A stretch of 27,838 nt of DNA from the IMG/VR virus record IMGVR_UViG_3300025687_000242, positions 1 to 27,838 of that record; one strand, given 5' to 3'. Source of the DNA: a virus. Shown one piece after another: positions 19,755 through 26,183 of the stretch. The translations under genes and the position numbers were made by a program. Positions within the stretch are counted from its first letter, which is position 1, and each line of letters begins with the position of its first letter. The notes under the pieces were generated by a model. That model saw only the letters and a list, made by a program, of their open reading frames with translations. It did no database searches and had not been told where the DNA came from.

Positions 19755-19845
19755 TCAAGTGGAAGGTGAGGTTGTGAGCCCGTTTCTTCTCTTGGTAGGC
19801 CAGCCCTCAACCGGATCTCGGCCACCGGCGAGCCGTAGAGTAAGT

Positions 19846-19952
19846 GTCGAGGCGGTCCGGATTCGAACCGGCGTATTCCTGGCTGTGTGGGCTTGGTGCT
19901 CGCGCAAATCACCGTACCCCAGGTCCGTCTTCCCTTTAACGCACGCCCCGAC
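19846..19952 (-). other. tRNA-like sequence with irregular fold
   Basis: On the minus strand the element ends in a classic tRNA T-arm: GCCGG, then TTCGAAT, then CCGGA. Terminal sequences GTCGGGGCG (19944-19952) and CGCCTCGAC (19846-19854) pair over 9 bp (one G-U). A D-arm-like CGTT-AAAGGGAA-GACG follows TG after the 5' strand. However, the anticodon stem candidate CCTGG/CCAGG encloses 36 nt rather than 7, position 49-65 is mismatched, and no CCA is encoded. It may be a decayed or intron-like phage tRNA, a tRNA-derived attachment site, or a tRNA mimic. A functional tRNA cannot be claimed. Confidence 0.4.
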
Positions 19953-20037
19953 AAGTCGAGAGTATCACAGTTTTGGTGGCGAGCAAAGACCTTAGTCCCT
20001 ACGTGCTAGATGTTGCACTACCCGCCGGAGCTAGTAT

Positions 20038-20279: not shown

Positions 20280-20336
20280 CGTGCTACGTTTCCTTCAGTT
20301 CGTATGCGTTGACCTGCCCAAAAGCCTGAAATCTAC

Positions 20337-20398
20337 ATACTTTGCGTTTGCGCCGCGTCTGCAAGCTAGCTTGCGTGCGCGTCGCTTTCGCAAAGTAT
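20337..20398. repeat. 62-bp near-palindrome with perfect 14-bp centre
   Basis: ATACTTTGCG (20337-20346) and CGCAAAGTAT (20389-20398) are perfect 10-bp inverted arms. The centre, GCAAGCTAGCTTGC (20361-20374), is a perfect palindrome. Both share the same axis. The 14-nt segments between them also pair in part (GCG and CGCG blocks), giving 24 Watson-Crick pairs of 31 plus two G-U. A TATACT -10-like hexamer on the leftward strand lies in the right arm (20395-20400). Candidates are a replication origin, a multi-site operator between the early and late modules, or a recombination/telomere-type palindrome. Confidence 0.75.
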
Positions 20399-20481
20399 AA
20401 CAGGTAGTGTCAAGTTTCAGCAAGCCTTTACTGAAAACAAAGGACTTAGGCGTCGCAAGGTACTGCACTTAGGTGTACGGA

Positions 20482-21529: not shown

Positions 21530-21880
21530 ATGACCACGCAAACAGAAACGACCACGAACGGAACAGACTTCGCGCAAATCTGCACAATCACGCACGAGGG
21601 ACACAGCTACACAGCAAGCGGCGCGTACAGCGTGGGCAATCGTGTTTTCGCCTACGTGAAGCACGACCTAGAGCCGTTCGCTGCTGGGCGCTGCATCATC
21701 CAAACGTGGGATGGAGTTGAGATCGGACGCGGGCGTATGACAGCTCGCCGCAACTTCACTTCACCGGGATCATGGGAACGTCAATACCGCCGCTGGATTG
21801 ACGCGACAATCGACGGTCGCAAGTATCGCGGCTGGTACTGCGAGTCTAGCGGCGACTACTGCCGATTAAAAGCGTACTAG
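21530..21880 (+). CDS. Hypothetical early protein
   Basis: 116 residues from ATG 21530, preceded by GAGGAG at 21514-21520. It is mainly beta (ICTITHEGHSYTASGAYSVG; FAYVKHDLEPFAAG; CIIQTWDGVEIGRGRM), then basic and Trp/Tyr-rich (SWERQYRRWIDATIDGRKYR). A Thr-rich N-terminus may be disordered. No known domain recognised. Its TAG stop abuts the type I hammerhead ribozyme, so the ribozyme would cut its mRNA about 47 nt past the stop. Confidence 0.7.
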   Translation: MTTQTETTTNGTDFAQICTITHEGHSYTASGAYSVGNRVFAYVKHDLEPFAAGRCIIQTWDGVEIGRGRMTARRNFTSPGSWERQYRRWIDATIDGRKYRGWYCESSGDYCRLKAY

Positions 21881-21931
21881 CCGCCTGATGAGACCACTGG
21901 CAAGGTCGAAACGCCCTTATGGGCGTCGCGG
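21881..21931 (+). ncRNA. Type I hammerhead ribozyme
   Basis: All core elements are present in order: stem I 5' strand CCGC (21881-21884), CUGAUGA (21885-21891), stem II GACC/GGUC with an 8-nt loop (21892-21907), GAAA (21908-21911), stem III CGCCC/GGGCG with UUAU loop (21912-21925), GUC (21925-21927), stem I 3' strand GCGG (21928-21931). A21911 pairs with U21926 as required, and cleavage is expected after C21927. Stem I is open, so the permutation is type I. It begins right after the stop of the upstream gene. Confidence 0.9.
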
Positions 21932-21943
21932 TAGCCACCGTAA

Positions 21944-21965
21944 GCTGAGCAGCCCTCAGTAGGAG
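21944..21965 (+). promoter_or_regulatory. Hairpin with GCAGCCC loop abutting Shine-Dalgarno (copy 1)
   Basis: GCUGA pairs with UCAGU (last pair G-U) around the 7-nt loop GCAGCCC (21949-21955), and AGGAG (21961-21965) follows with no spacer. The ATG lies 8 nt further. The same architecture with different stem sequences recurs at 22349-22370 and 22858-22879, so the pairing is conserved rather than the stem bases. A translation-control element is inferred. Confidence 0.8.
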
Positions 21966-21973
21966 TTTTGAAG

Positions 21974-22288
21974 ATGACGACACTTAGCAAGGGATTCACC
22001 CTAGACGACATGTACAAGTGGGAAGGGCAGCTAGCCCAGCGCGAAGCGAGGCGCTTGTGGGATGCGCTGACACAATCCGGCGGGGTAGGCTCGCTGTACT
22101 TGTATTTCAAGCCGTCTACCGCTGACACGCCGGGCGACATTCTGTTTGTGCGCGAAGAGGATAGCGCCAGCGACGAATGGCAATGCGCCGAACCCCAAGC
22201 GTACAGGGGAAACCTCACACAAGAGCAAGCCACCAGACGCATTCTGAAGACAATCAAAAGCCTACCGATTCTGCCGTACGGTGAGTGA
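21974..22288 (+). CDS. Hypothetical early protein
   Basis: 104 residues from ATG 21974. N-terminal helix (FTLDDMYKWEGQLAQREARR then LWDALTQSGG), a strand segment (VGSLYLYFKPS), an acidic middle (REEDSASDEWQCAEPQAYRG) and a C-terminal helix (TQEQATRRILKTIKSLP). One Cys, no membrane segment. The ribosome-binding site is the structured AGGAG of hairpin copy 1, downstream of the hammerhead cleavage site. No family recognised. Its mRNA should start at 21928 after cleavage. Confidence 0.7.
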   Translation: MTTLSKGFTLDDMYKWEGQLAQREARRLWDALTQSGGVGSLYLYFKPSTADTPGDILFVREEDSASDEWQCAEPQAYRGNLTQEQATRRILKTIKSLPILPYGE

Positions 22289-22300
22289 ATCCCTAGACCA

Positions 22301-22324
22301 TGCGCCTACCCTAGCGTGGGCGCA
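22301..22324 (+). repeat. Strong hairpin in the gap with no hammerhead core
   Basis: UGCGCCUAC (22301-22309) pairs with GUGGGCGCA (22316-22324) over 9 bp (one G-U), loop CCUAGC. AGCG/CGCU (22330-22333 / 22340-22343) forms a second small hairpin. This gap (22289-22378) holds the GCAGCCC hairpin like its neighbours, but no CUGAUGA or GAAA core. It may be an unrelated stability stem or another self-cleaving fold. Confidence 0.5.
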
Positions 22325-22348
22325 TTCCTAGCGATTCAACGCTAATAA

Positions 22349-22370
22349 GCTAGGCAGCCCCTAGCAGGAG
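22349..22370 (+). promoter_or_regulatory. Hairpin with GCAGCCC loop abutting Shine-Dalgarno (copy 2)
   Basis: GCUAG (22349-22353) pairs with CUAGC (22361-22365), all Watson-Crick, around loop GCAGCCC (22354-22360). AGGAG (22366-22370) follows directly; the ATG is 8 nt beyond. Stem bases differ from copies 1 and 3 but pairing, loop and spacing are kept. Confidence 0.8.
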
Positions 22371-22378
22371 ATTTGACG

Positions 22379-22792
22379 ATGGAAGACTTTGAACAACGAG
22401 ACTTAGAACGATTCACCCGAGCCTATATCGTGGCGATGCTATGGAGCTCGAGCGATGAGAGTGACGAAAGCGGCGGCGAACCATTGGACGCCAACTACAG
22501 CGCCGATGATCTAGCGCCGGAAGCGCTGGCGGCGATCGAGTCCGATTGCAAGGCGTTCTACACTGCTCATTCCGAGTTGTGGGTCGACCAATACAAAAAC
22601 GCCCGCCGATTCGCCGCAACGGAATCCGAATGCGCTGGCCATGATTTCTGGCTCACCCGCGCTGGGCATGGCGCGGGTTTCTGGGATGGGGACTGGGAAG
22701 AGCCAGCCGCTACCACACTGACTGATGCCTGCAAGGCGTTCGGTGAGGTTTGGCCCTACGTTGGTGACGATGGATTGATCTATCTCGGCTAG
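22379..22792 (+). CDS. Early protein of a widespread phage family
   Basis: 137 residues from ATG 22379. N-terminus DFEQRDLERFTRAYIVAMLW helix; central LAPEALAAIESDCKAFYTAH; then CAGHDFWLTRAGHGAGFWDG, an element I recall from many small early phage proteins; C-terminus LTDACKAFGEVWPYVGDDG. No catalytic site can be named. The family has no agreed function that I know. Its stop codon (TAG 22790-22792) is part of stem II of the type II hammerhead, so a terminating ribosome would block ribozyme folding. Confidence 0.75.
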   Translation: MEDFEQRDLERFTRAYIVAMLWSSSDESDESGGEPLDANYSADDLAPEALAAIESDCKAFYTAHSELWVDQYKNARRFAATESECAGHDFWLTRAGHGAGFWDGDWEEPAATTLTDACKAFGEVWPYVGDDGLIYLG

Positions 22793-22853
22793 CCGAAACG
22801 GCCCACACTGGGCCGTCCGCCAGAACGCCCTACTGGCGCTGATGAGGCAGGGC
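22789..22853 (+). ncRNA. Type II hammerhead ribozyme
   Basis: Same core as the first ribozyme, permuted. GAAA (22795-22798), stem III CGGCCC/GGGCCG with ACACU loop (22799-22815), GUC (22815-22817), stem I CGCCAG/CUGGCG with a 9-nt loop (22818-22838), CUGAUGA (22839-22845). Open stem II is GCC (22792-22794) with GGC (22846-22848), continued past an A-A mismatch. A22798-U22816 and the conserved G-C closing stem II are present. Cleavage is expected after C22817. Open stem II makes it type II. Confidence 0.88.
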
Positions 22854-22857
22854 ATAA

Positions 22858-22879
22858 GATCGGCAGCCCCGATTAGGAG
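22858..22879 (+). promoter_or_regulatory. Hairpin with GCAGCCC loop abutting Shine-Dalgarno (copy 3)
   Basis: GAUCG (22858-22862) pairs with CGAUU (22870-22874, last pair G-U) around GCAGCCC (22863-22869); AGGAG (22875-22879) follows with no gap, and the ATG is 9 nt beyond. It lies 4 nt downstream of the type II hammerhead. Confidence 0.8.
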
Positions 22880-23269: not shown

Positions 23270-23403
23270 CCATCCTATACACTTTCCCATTCGCAGCCCT
23301 GGCCCTATCCGGGCTGGCGACGATCCACCCGAACGCAGCGCTCTGGGCGGCATTCGCGGCCGCCGCGCTGTACTGCTACCGCGCCGATCGGCGTATTAAC
23401 TAA
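23266..23403 (+). CDS. 45-residue small membrane protein
   Basis: The protein is MTILYTFPFAALALSGLATI then HPNAALWAAFAAAALYCYRA and DRRIN. Two hydrophobic segments (3-20 and 24-38) and a basic end suggest two membrane passes, both termini on one side. It starts in an ATGA overlap with the previous gene and its TAA begins the first TAAACCGTG repeat. A small inner-membrane peptide affecting host physiology is inferred; a holin is possible but unsupported. Confidence 0.65.
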   Translation: MTILYTFPFAALALSGLATIHPNAALWAAFAAAALYCYRADRRIN

Positions 23404-23430
23404 ACCGTGAGAACCAAGGGAGCTAATACC

Positions 23431-23643
23431 GTGACGAAAACAGAGGCAACTGAGCGCCTTCGCCAAACCAAAACGCCCGAGCTGGTGGTAAAAACCGAGC
23501 GCCACGATAGGCTCTGCCTAGCTAGTGGGCGTGAATGGATCGGCCAATTCGGGGTAACGCCTGGGGCGTGTTCCTGTGGCGGCCCAAAGTCCTACGGCTA
23601 CACCTACAGTATCGTGCTAGACACAGGCAGGGCAGGCAACTAA
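23431..23643 (+). CDS. Hypothetical early protein
   Basis: 70 residues from GTG 23431, chosen because AAGGGAG lies 9 nt upstream; an earlier GTG at 23407 in frame sits inside the repeat and lacks a ribosome-binding site. The protein has a helical basic N-terminus (MTKTEATERLRQTKTPELVV), then CLASGREWIGQFGVTPGACS then CGGP with three Cys. A small zinc-binding or redox fold is possible. The stop is the second TAAACCGTG copy. Confidence 0.65.
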   Translation: MTKTEATERLRQTKTPELVVKTERHDRLCLASGREWIGQFGVTPGACSCGGPKSYGYTYSIVLDTGRAGN

Positions 23644-23672
23644 ACCGTGAGCAACCAGGAGAGGACAAGACC

Positions 23673-23969
23673 ATGAAAATGCAAGACGATCGCACCCCCG
23701 AACAACTCAAGACGCATCAACTGCTGATTATCGGGACTGATTCATTCATGAGCGGCTGGGGCGATGCCGACAACGGCGTCAGCTATGCCGCTTGGGCATG
23801 CCACTACGACGACGCCGACAAGGTACGCCGCTGGGTCGAATCCCGTAGCGAGATGAAACGAGTGCGGGAGACGGTAGACCCGACGTATGACGGCAAGCGC
23901 TACCGCCCGTCAGGGCGTGGCCACTGCCACATCTACGTGGTCGAGAAGGGGCACCCGGCGCTGGGCTAA
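23673..23969 (+). CDS. Early protein of a phage-conserved type
   Basis: 98 residues. Contains HQLLIIGTDSFMSGWGDADN, YAAWACHYDDADKVRRWVES and RPSGRGHCHIYVVEKGHPAL. The GTDSFMSGWG...SYAAWAC...VxxWVExRSxMKRVR pattern I recognise from small early proteins of several tailed phages; no function is known to me. Short strand-helix-strand fold likely. The ATG has CCAGGAGAGG upstream. Its TAA begins the TAAACCGC variant of the repeat. Confidence 0.72.
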   Translation: MKMQDDRTPEQLKTHQLLIIGTDSFMSGWGDADNGVSYAAWACHYDDADKVRRWVESRSEMKRVRETVDPTYDGKRYRPSGRGHCHIYVVEKGHPALG

Positions 23970-24130
23970 ACCGCAAGGCTTCCGGGCGCGTACTCCACGC
24001 GTCCGTTGCGGTGAGCCTCGCAAGCTCTCATGGTGCGTCCGTCAAGCGCACTCGGCCCCAGGGCTGCCGCCTTCTCGCGGCGGGGCTGATTCAGACTGAG
24101 TGCAGCCGACTAAACAGTAGGAGGATGACA
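23970..24130 (+). other. 160-nt structured intergenic region
   Basis: No gene fits. Successive hairpins can be drawn: CCGCAA/TTGCGG (23971-23976 / 24007-24012) enclosing CGCGT-ACTCC-ACGCG; GAGC/GCTC near 24013-24027; GTGCG/CGCAC near 24033-24051; CCGCC/GGCGG near 24067-24083. A weaker form of the ribosome-binding hairpin follows: AGT-GCAGCCG-ACT (24099-24111) inside ACTG/CAGT (24096-24118), next to AGGAGG. No hammerhead core and no tRNA T-loop were found. A regulatory RNA or structured leader is inferred. Confidence 0.5.
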
Positions 24131-24421
24131 GTGCAAGACATCACATATACCACCGCTAGCGGTACCGAATGCCGCGCCACAATTTCACACTCGTGGGAGC
24201 GACAGCCCCACAATAGGGGCGATAAGCTCCGCGCCACCGTGAGGCGAACAGGTTTCGTCGATTGGCACATCCACTCGCCCACAGTCCACCCGTCGGTATC
24301 GCCTCAGATGCGCGATGCAATCGTCTCCGACGCTGCCGAATTCGCCAAGCGCTGTCTCGCTGGGAGACGGCCCGAGAGCACCCAATTTTCTACCAGTGCA
24401 GCCGATACCGCTACGGACTAA
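24131..24421 (+). CDS. Hypothetical early protein
   Basis: 96 residues from GTG 24131; AGGAGG ends 6 nt upstream. An ATG at 24125 directly abuts the Shine-Dalgarno and is less likely. The gene at 24741 has the same AGGAGG-ATGACA-start layout. The protein begins with strands (ITYTTASGTECRATISHSWE; KLRATVRRTGFVDWHIHSP) and ends in a helix (MRDAIVSDAAEFAKRCLAGR) plus a Ser/Thr-rich tail. No family recognised. The stop is a TAAACCGTG copy. Confidence 0.65.
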   Translation: MQDITYTTASGTECRATISHSWERQPHNRGDKLRATVRRTGFVDWHIHSPTVHPSVSPQMRDAIVSDAAEFAKRCLAGRRPESTQFSTSAADTATD

Positions 24422-24450
24422 ACCGTGGACGAAACGAAGGAGATGAGACC

Positions 24451-24654
24451 ATGACCAGACACGAACCAGCAGCACACAGCCAAACCGGGTACTACCTCGT
24501 GCAGCTTGGCGCACAGTACCGCACTTGGGCAGATCGAGACGGCGCAGTAGCGAAAGCGCAACAACTTTCCGCAGAAGACGACCGCCCGTATACCGTCAAA
24601 TGCCGCTGGACGGGGCAACTTTGGACGTTTTACCCGTCAGATGCCGGCGGCTAA
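24451..24654 (+). CDS. Hypothetical early protein
   Basis: 67 residues: TGYYLVQLGAQYRTWADRDG, then AVAKAQQLSAEDDRPYTVKC and RWTGQLWTFYPSDAGG. A strand-helix-strand fold is likely. The YxV...WADRxGAVAKAQ segment resembles the 48-residue first gene of the operon, so the two may be distant paralogues. ATG 24451 follows GAAGGAGATGAGACC. The stop starts a TAAACCGTC copy. Confidence 0.65.
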   Translation: MTRHEPAAHSQTGYYLVQLGAQYRTWADRDGAVAKAQQLSAEDDRPYTVKCRWTGQLWTFYPSDAGG

Positions 24655-24709
24655 ACCGTCACTGATCCCCGGACTATGCGCCACGGCGGCTAAACCGTGG
24701 CGTATCCCC
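24652..24709 (+). repeat. Tandem duplicate with 11-bp hairpin
   Basis: TAAACCGTCACTGATCCCCGG (21 bases split here: TAAACCGTCACTG then ATCCCCGG) at 24652 is repeated as TAAACCGTGGCGT then ATCCCCGG at 24691. Between them ATGCGCCACGG (24676-24686) pairs with CCGTGGCGTAT (24695-24705), 11 bp with one G-U, loop CGGCTAAA. No U-tract follows. The copy without a gene suggests that a small gene was lost or that the element spreads by itself. Confidence 0.6.
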
Positions 24710-24740
24710 GGCGACCAATGCCGAACTAGGAGGAATGACA

Positions 24741-24980
24741 ATGAACGACGTATACGAACGATCTATCCAGGGCGACGAAGTCTCACACTACGCCAGTATT
24801 GGCAGCGTGCGCGGCGACTGCGGACACAAACACCGCTCGCCACGTACAGCCATGAGCTGCACAGCGCGAGACCAGCGCGCTTGCCGGCAACTCCCAGGGC
24901 GGTGCTATTCCGACCGCTCGACCTACTTGGTACTCACTGATGGTACGCAGATCGACATCGGATGGAACGCCGAAGGCTAA
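24741..24980 (+). CDS. Hypothetical early protein with Cys/His motif
   Basis: 79 residues from ATG 24741, with AGGAGG ending 7 nt upstream. Contains CGHKHRSPRTAMSC and CRQLPGRC, so four Cys plus two His could hold a metal. The C-terminus has strands (STYLVLTDGTQIDIGW). The GDCGHKHRSPRTAMSC layout is like small phage proteins built as a CGHxHxxxxxAxxC knuckle. Function unknown. Stop TAAACCAG is a diverged copy of the repeat. Confidence 0.65.
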   Translation: MNDVYERSIQGDEVSHYASIGSVRGDCGHKHRSPRTAMSCTARDQRACRQLPGRCYSDRSTYLVLTDGTQIDIGWNAEG

Positions 24981-24987
24981 ACCAGCC

Positions 24988-25134
24988 ATGATCTACGAAG
25001 TCTGCCGCAAGTGCAAACACACCTACGACCCCGCCAAGGGGTGCCAGAACTGCCCGCCGCCGGCCCCAAAAGCTGCGGCGGGCTCAAAGCTAAACCGTAA
25101 GCGATCGAGCAAGAAGAAGGAACCGAAGCGATGA
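24988..25134 (+). CDS. 48-residue zinc-ribbon protein
   Basis: The protein begins MIYEVCRKCKHTYDPAKGCQ and contains CRKC (6-9) and CQNC (19-22), a compact two-knuckle zinc site, then a Pro/Ala linker and a Lys/Arg tail (KRSSKKKEPKR). ATG 24988 has AAGG about 11 nt upstream, within the previous gene. The stop overlaps the next start as ATGA. RNA or DNA binding is inferred. It contains an in-frame CTAAACCGT copy (25091), read as Leu-Asn-Arg. Confidence 0.65.
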   Translation: MIYEVCRKCKHTYDPAKGCQNCPPPAPKAAAGSKLNRKRSSKKKEPKR

Positions 25135-25358
25135 AACCGATTAACAACCGACCCCCGCAGGCGTGCGCGATTGCTCGCAACGTCTTCACTATCCCCAATG
25201 CCGACCTCGCGGAGTTAAGCGCCGCTGCGGGCGGGCCGTTCTCCTGTATCATCGGATGGTACGGCAAGGCTACCGTGCGACCCGACCAGGACCGCTATTA
25301 CATGCCCGTGGCTACCCGCGTGACAATCGGCAAGATTCTCATGGGGGTCGCCCAATGA
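25131..25358 (+). CDS. Hypothetical early protein
   Basis: 75 residues, starting in an ATGA overlap with the zinc-ribbon gene and ending in another ATGA overlap with the next gene. Reads IARNVFTIPNADLAELSAAA then GGPFSCIIGWYGKATVRPDQ and YYMPVATRVTIGKILMGVA: a helix, then strands. One Cys-pair is absent, so no metal site. No family recognised. Tight overlaps on both sides point to a coupled set of three genes. Confidence 0.65.
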   Translation: MKPINNRPPQACAIARNVFTIPNADLAELSAAAGGPFSCIIGWYGKATVRPDQDRYYMPVATRVTIGKILMGVAQ

Positions 25359-25852
25359 ACTGCCCCCACTGCGAACACGACCTAACCGACCTTGAAATCA
25401 AGCGCCTATGGTCGGCCTACTGCAACGCGCGCATCCCCGAAGAGAAGCGCGGCGGGGGGGCTAAACCGTGGAAGAATCACAGTGTCAAGGCGGGGCTAAA
25501 ATGTCGCTGCAAAGACTGCAACCGCCTGCGCCAGATCCGGCTGGACGACCTGGAGCGCGCGAAAGCGGTCAAATTCGTGGAACCGTCGCCCGAGGATCTG
25601 ACCTGGGATGCGATGCTAACCGTTAACCCTCAAGACGGCTACGAAGCGCTGATTCGCCACGAAACGAACAAGCGCGTCGGGCGGCGCAAGGCTAAACTGA
25701 AAAGCAAGATCAGCCAGGAACGATTCAACCTCAAAATGAAGTTATTGCGGGAACGTGCTGAAAACGAAAAGGTTTGGGGTAAGATAGTCAAAGAGGCGAA
25801 GGCCCGAGCAGACAAACGATGCCAGAACCAAGACCATTCCAAGGCAAACTGA
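25355..25852 (+). CDS. Zinc-finger coiled-coil early protein
   Basis: 165 residues from ATG 25355 (ATGA overlap). N-terminus MNCPHCEHDLTDLEIKRLWS carries CPHC, and CRCKDC lies near 56-61, which makes a split zinc ribbon. I recall CPHCxxxLTxxEVRxLW openings in many phage early proteins. The rest is a long basic helix (LKSKISQERFNLKMKLLRER then AENEKVWGKIVKEAKARADK). Nucleic-acid binding is inferred. An in-frame TAAACCGTGG copy (25461) is read as Ala-Lys-Pro-Trp. The next gene starts inside this gene's 3' end. Confidence 0.72.
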   Translation: MNCPHCEHDLTDLEIKRLWSAYCNARIPEEKRGGGAKPWKNHSVKAGLKCRCKDCNRLRQIRLDDLERAKAVKFVEPSPEDLTWDAMLTVNPQDGYEALIRHETNKRVGRRKAKLKSKISQERFNLKMKLLRERAENEKVWGKIVKEAKARADKRCQNQDHSKAN

Positions 25853-26004
25853 TTGTTGACGAAGACGGCCACGGCGTCCTCTACCTGGACGGGATGCGGT
25901 ACGATGTTGGGACCGGCTCAAACGCCTACCTGCGCATTGAGAGCTGCTTCGCCGCCCTTGTTCGGGAACTAGCAAACAAATGCCGACCCCCCAAGAATCA
26001 ATGA
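25819..26004 (+). CDS. Hypothetical early protein
   Basis: 61 residues; ATG 25819 lies 34 nt inside the preceding gene. The protein is PRPFQGKLIVDEDGHGVLYL then DGMRYDVGTGSNAYLRIESC then FAALVRELANKC: a beta hairpin followed by a helix. Two Cys, no membrane segment. AGGCGAAGG lies about 20 nt upstream, so the start is not strongly fixed. Function unknown. The stop overlaps a likely start of the next gene as ATGA. Confidence 0.6.
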   Translation: MPEPRPFQGKLIVDEDGHGVLYLDGMRYDVGTGSNAYLRIESCFAALVRELANKCRPPKNQ

Positions 26005-26174
26005 ACCCTTTGGATGCCGCCAAGCGTATGCAGGTTGACAAGCTCTCCCAGCTCATCGACGTGCTCGGCTGGTACGTTATGGACCCCACGCTGCCGGCGG
26101 AAGTCAACGCCTACGCTTTGTCGCGCCTGGGGGCGTTGCTTCAGTATCTCGAAGCACGCTCCCAGGGCGACTAA
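26001..26174 (+). CDS. Short helical early protein, last of the operon
   Basis: 57 residues from ATG 26001, which overlaps the previous stop as ATGA; ATG 25980 (seven more residues, GGGAA upstream) is the alternative. All helix: MNPLDAAKRMQVDKLSQLID, VLGWYVMDPTLPAEVNAYAL, SRLGALLQYLEARSQGD. No Cys. It ends the rightward operon in a TAAACCGTG copy, 9 nt before the convergent secreted-protein gene. Function unknown. Confidence 0.6.
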   Translation: MNPLDAAKRMQVDKLSQLIDVLGWYVMDPTLPAEVNAYALSRLGALLQYLEARSQGD

Positions 26175-26183
26175 ACCGTGGCT

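Follow-up and report, generated by a model that had tools for sequence, protein, structure and literature searches.

The window, by which we mean the whole 27,838-nt stretch of DNA analysed here, a linear 27.8-kb virus record, carries two hammerhead ribozymes, one of type I and one of type II, which lie on the same strand at the stop codons of small early genes and are each followed by a shared leader hairpin that abuts a ribosome-binding site. We consider it probable that the two ribozymes divide the rightward early transcript into shorter mRNAs that have protected ends and carry a standard leader. The pair are real hammerheads, and their kind and arrangement are already known; the preliminary description of this DNA had recognized the first of them and had missed both the second (22791-22856) and the shared leader module.

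Late genes, including those for terminase, portal and head protein, run leftward in this record, and the rightward set of small early genes starts at about 21.4 kb. The best explanation is a small tailed phage with a rightward early transcript carrying both ribozymes. Three of the early genes bear directly on what follows:

21530-21880, + strand: ORF B (116 aa), for which no family was found; the stop codon UAG (21878-21880) adjoins hammerhead I
21974-22288, + strand: ORF C, 104 aa, stop codon UGA, no confident family
22379-22792, + strand: ORF D, 137 aa, phrog_1915 (unknown function); its stop codon UAG (22790-22792) overlaps hammerhead II

Relatives of ORF D are present in many phages, and hammerheads were absent from those on contigs L008-L011. 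ORF C had one distant relative, in which a covariance-model search gave no convincing match, and no relatives of ORF E were found. Terminase relatives (L003-L006, 92-100% identical) end before the early region or have other sequence there, and our search for conservation of the two ribozymes across phages found no near relative with the region.

Other repeats and folds were noted in the window. Between the divergent gene sets, at 20330-20400, there is a long inverted repeat (ATACTTTGCG...CGCAAAGTAT, with an inner GCAAGCTAGCTTGC; -35.9 kcal/mol), also present in the relative L006, which is a candidate origin, terminator or regulatory site. On the minus strand at 19845-19955 we observed a tRNA-like fold whose acceptor-like stem has 7 bp and which includes a GGTTCGAATCC T-arm; neither ARAGORN nor Rfam made a call there, and the fold is perhaps a tRNA relic, an attachment-site remnant or a tRNA mimic. 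A CTAAACCGTG-like motif occurs at ten plus-strand sites within 23400-26180 (23400, 23640, 23966, 24110, 24418, 24651, 24690, 25090, 25461 and 26171), eight of them with at most one mismatch against 1.2 expected, and at six of the ten sites the TAA of the motif ends a frame that stays open over at least 50 codons. It may be a regulatory repeat associated with stops, similar in its position to the stoperators or start-associated sequences that other phages have.

The first ribozyme and a possible tertiary contact within it were located as follows:

21881-21931, + strand: hammerhead I, type I with stem I open, predicted cut 21927/21928 (C21927/G21928)
21898-21937, + strand: possible hammerhead I pseudoknot of 4 bp, UGGC 21898-21901 (loop II) with GCCA 21934-21937 (3' of stem I)

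The stretch 21881-21931 is a complete type I hammerhead, as had been claimed for it from its core bases and three stems. Its letters are CCGC CUGAUGA GACC-ACUGGCAA-GGUC GAA ACGCCC-UUAU-GGGCGU C GCGG, in which CUGANGA, GAAA and U16.1-H17 occur in order: CUGAUGA at 21885-21891, GAA at 21908-21910 (GAAA 21908-21911) and C17 at 21927, the last in agreement with the cut that the preliminary description had predicted between 21927 and 21928. Three stems meet at the core, of which II and III are closed by loops and I is open. Stem I consists of 21881-21884/21928-21931 (CCGC/GCGG) plus a wobble pair G21880-U21932, stem II of 21892-21895/21904-21907 (GACC/GGUC) with the loop ACUGGCAA, and stem III of 21911-21916/21921-21926 with the loop UUAU, closed by the A15.1-U16.1 pair (A21911-U21926). 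Since the upstream ORF B ends with TAG at 21878-21880, the ribozyme directly abuts the stop codon without a gap, which bears out the location given earlier.

The Rfam comparison proposed in the preliminary description gave a divided answer: Hammerhead_1 (RF00163) was the best family for hammerhead I, but the score of 20.3 bits lay below the gathering cut-off of 34, which is a curation threshold of Rfam and not a defining hammerhead feature. A phage-derived covariance model was based on 49 diverse hammerheads of type I from other viral contigs, the window being left out. Hammerhead I scored 49.9 bits with it, at an E value of about 3e-14 for the window; in 705 kb of other sequence the best hit of this model, at 33.7 bits, is probably a genuine hammerhead, and no further score exceeded 14.2 bits. 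A strict type I descriptor, demanding stems of at least 4, 4 and 6 pairs, matched none of 600 shuffled strands (300 dinucleotide shuffles, both strands), and a loose descriptor matched two of 600. From the shuffles and the phage-derived model we conclude that hammerhead I is more than a chance match. The possible contact between loop II and the 3' flank is of the kind described in PMC3088659, but 4-bp matches of this sort are weak when taken alone, being present in 24% of the phage type I hammerheads among the matches listed and in 11% with swapped flanks. We rejected an overlapping type II reading (21904-21958), whose core would read CUGAGCA.

The second ribozyme lies at the end of ORF D:

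22791-22856, + strand: hammerhead II, type II with stem II open, predicted cut 22817/22818
22827-22853, + strand: hammerhead II pseudoknot of 5 bp, GCCCU 22827-22831 (loop I) with AGGGC 22849-22853
21928-22817, + strand: predicted two-gene RNA (ORFs C and D) of 890 nt with 5'-OH and 2',3'-cyclic phosphate ends, as expected from the two predicted cuts

Hammerhead II scored 46.1 bits with RF02276 (cut-off 37) over model positions 1-66 of 66, and its core is intact. Stem II comprises 22792-22794/22846-22848 (3 bp), its first base being the last base of the ORF D stop codon, and is followed by GAAA (22795-22798), stem III (22798-22816), the stem I hairpin (22818-22838) and CUGAUGA (22839-22845). 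The pseudoknot, which was read from the sequence, can join loop I to the 3' tail of stem II and matches the type II pseudoknot of PMC3088659; plain folding of hammerhead II prefers slightly different pairings. A descriptor scan of the window revealed no third hammerhead. The two predicted cuts are 890 nt apart, with ORFs C and D between them.

We then compared this arrangement with hammerheads from other viral contigs, using two IMG/VR pattern scans, one for type I and one for type II, with at least 120 stretches each. Descriptors yielded 169 nonredundant hammerheads of type I and 181 of type II among the matches listed. Counting only stops of ORFs of at least 60 codons, 67% of the type I and 80% of the type II hammerheads among the matches listed begin no more than 12 nt from an ORF stop, compared to 7% and 11%, respectively, of random positions in the same loci. 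The offsets in the window are 0 for hammerhead I and -1 for hammerhead II, and -1 is also the commonest type II offset among the matches listed. The preliminary description had regarded placement after a stop codon among small phage genes as unusual; these frequencies refute that view, and a position right at the stop codon is the rule for phage hammerheads and not the exception. Downstream, 52% of the type I hammerheads among the matches listed are followed, 10-75 nt beyond the cut, by a Shine-Dalgarno (SD) sequence and start codon (control, 11%); the median of 29 nt is exceeded in the window, where the ATG follows the cuts of I and II by 46 and 71 nt. Copies per stretch reach at least eight for nonredundant type I and at least ten for any type among the matches listed. 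Dense arrays were also seen, with seven matches to the type II pattern inside 4 kb of one locus (L209) and eight type I matches within 6 kb in another (L092). Type I and type II together are uncommon, occurring in 3 of 226 hammerhead loci among the matches listed, the window included, a ratio that is only rough because the two scans were each biased to one type. A pairing figure of 99% was discounted as evidence because the sequences behind it had been selected by pairing.

A terminating ribosome must cover bases just downstream of the stop codon. The ribozymes could therefore be translation-coupled or regulated switches, in which a ribosome at the abutting stop covers the 5' strand of the ribozyme and cutting tracks upstream translation. 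That both ribozymes start at or inside a stop codon, like most of those in the survey, speaks for such coupling, but tight packing of genes alone could explain the same placement, and we hold this alternative only tentatively. The processing of the early transcript that we favor is consistent with the same placement and concerns what each cut leaves on the two sides, to which the sequences downstream of the ribozymes are relevant:

21941-21965, + strand: leader module copy 1, hairpin 21944-21960 and AGGAG 21961-21965, then ATG 21974
22346-22370, + strand: leader module copy 2, hairpin 22349-22365 and AGGAG 22366-22370, then ATG 22379
22855-22879, + strand: leader module copy 3, hairpin 22858-22874 and AGGAG 22875-22879, then ATG 22889
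22286-22345, + strand: structured element at junction C/D, a 10-bp hairpin at about 22300-22325 plus a UAGCG hairpin, candidate processing or coupling element

Junctions B/C, C/D and D/E share the same ending (repeat family D3), namely UAAG, a 6-bp hairpin with a CAGCC loop and an abutting AGGAG, with the spacing TAAG-N4-GCAGCCC-N5-AGGAG; two of these junctions have ribozymes and one has a non-ribozyme hairpin. The stems vary while the pairing is kept by compensatory changes (CUGAG/CUCAG, CUAGG/CCUAG and AUCGG/CCGAU). Each stem has a closing G-Y pair whose G comes from UAAG, and GCAGCCC is invariant. A viral scan found no other stem-forming copies except one in apparent coding sequence, at about the chance rate. 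At the middle junction, 22286-22378 is strongly folded (z -4.1, 0 of 200 shuffles), and its SD sequence AGGAG may be paired to nucleotides at the stop of the upstream gene. We found no hammerhead core by descriptor and no Rfam ribozyme in 22289-22378, so that processing at this junction would need another agent or would not occur; we infer that it may be a counterpart of the other two that does without a ribozyme, either of RNase III type or coupling translation. An unlikely but wider idea is that the leader binds a protein of phage or host, or deliberately gives ribosomes access, controlling three early genes jointly, with the hammerheads and the middle hairpin as interchangeable makers of the same end-protected leader. 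This would be a natural RiboJ-like system, with ribozyme and nuclease-type processing standing in for each other.

Cleavage of hammerhead I would also allow a rearrangement of its downstream product:

21928-21941, + strand: post-cleavage 5'-terminal hairpin of the type I product, GCGGU-AGCC-ACCGU

The 5' arm of this hairpin is the 3' strand of stem I, and hairpin and stem I are therefore mutually exclusive. The two folds differ by about 1 kcal/mol (-27.5 vs. -28.7 kcal/mol), and stem I would form first during transcription since ACCGU is made last. The predicted 3' product of hammerhead II starts with stem I itself, a 6-bp hairpin without an overhang, and thus both predicted 3' products have a hairpin at the 5' terminus. 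Counting at least 4 Watson-Crick pairs, we found that 36 of the 169 phage type I hammerheads among the matches listed can refold in this way, compared to a mean of 19 in controls with swapped or shuffled flanks, and none of 500 controls was as high; with one hammerhead per contig the count was 22 of 95 among the matches listed, vs. 10 expected. The exact enrichment (about twofold) is soft because of related contigs and shared flanks. Examples of refolding through the stem I 3' strand were observed on viral contigs such as L062, L071, L077, L100 and L116.

Starting from the observed sequences and folds, the statistical position at stop and start codons and the repeated leader, we favor the following course of events. 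The region would be transcribed as one early polycistronic RNA, which each ribozyme, fused to the stop codon of the upstream gene, would cut. The upstream mRNA would terminate in the hairpin of stem III and bear a 2',3'-cyclic phosphate there, and the downstream mRNA would gain a 5'-hydroxyl and a 5'-terminal hairpin (the refolded GCGGU/ACCGU for I, stem I for II). The second hairpin, with its CAGCC loop abutting the SD sequence, would come next, the ribosome-binding site AGGAG being kept clear, and mRNA stability and translation would presumably be affected. This processing is favored by the complete cores and stems of both ribozymes and by the co-directional genes, the stop-codon placement and the SD sequence and start codon downstream, features that most phage hammerheads among the matches listed have in common. 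The 5'-terminal hairpins on both products, together with the refolding enrichment in phage type I, and the leader common to three junctions with compensatory stem changes argue in the same direction. Further support comes from the clustered hammerheads that flank prophage genes, whose cleavage Perreault et al. 2011 saw in vitro and, for one of them, also in E. coli (PMC3088659), and from RiboJ, a hammerhead and hairpin before a ribosome-binding site, which raises mRNA and protein (PMC6206723). The reading is weakened by the nearly equal stability of the fold that competes with hammerhead I and by the slightly different plain fold of hammerhead II, as well as by the lack of a near relative with the region and the middle junction without a ribozyme.

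The competing fold of similar energy and the score below the Rfam type I cut-off might also suggest that hammerhead I is a chance match or has decayed and is inactive, with only hammerhead II working. Its score with the phage-derived model, unchanged core, absence from all 600 strictly searched shuffles and typical position make this very unlikely. RtcB-type ligases join 5'-OH and 2',3'-cyclic phosphate ends, which the two predicted same-strand ribozymes would give to the 890-nt RNA released between them. Ligation of these ends to give a circular or spliced RNA is nevertheless highly improbable, as Perreault et al. sought such products of clustered hammerheads and found none (PMC3088659), and ribozymes of different type make no dimer-like repeats of the sort found in retrozymes or viroids.

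That hammerheads were already known in phages, as the preliminary description noted, is correct; clusters of them were published in 2011 (PMC3088659). Perreault et al. suggested processing into gene-length mRNAs, and the window resembles their clusters in having same-strand hammerheads around single genes or short blocks, types I and II, and a pseudoknot between the regions of stems I and II (PMC3088659). It differs in combining type I and type II within one operon, as in only 3 of the 226 loci among the matches listed, and in its repeated SD-proximal hairpin module, of which there is no mention in the available text of that paper; a search of the paper's text for "stop codon" returned nothing (PMC3088659). 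Compared to RF00163, hammerhead I shares all core bases and the open stem I but has a longer stem III and an 8-nt loop II, and hammerhead II, which passes over the whole of RF02276, differs in its 3-bp stem II and in having AGGGC for the consensus AGCC pseudoknot strand. The parts worth following are the shared leader and the general docking at stop codons. The regularity from the survey, a start at the stop codon, a type I cut with the next start codon some 29 nt further on and a released strand that often refolds into a 5' hairpin, makes the mRNA-processing idea testable in any cultured phage of this kind. RiboJ, engineered from the sTRSV ribozyme and placed after a promoter, about doubled mRNA and increased protein two- to tenfold, an effect for which its authors propose the terminal hairpin as a cause (PMC6206723). 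As in RiboJ, the order here is a hammerhead cut, then a hairpin, then a ribosome-binding site (PMC6206723); unlike RiboJ, the arrangement is natural, lies between genes and has its hairpin at three junctions, of which the middle one lacks a ribozyme. The locus thus adds a compact case, two ribozyme types with a shared leader hairpin, that is close to the expression-raising RiboJ.
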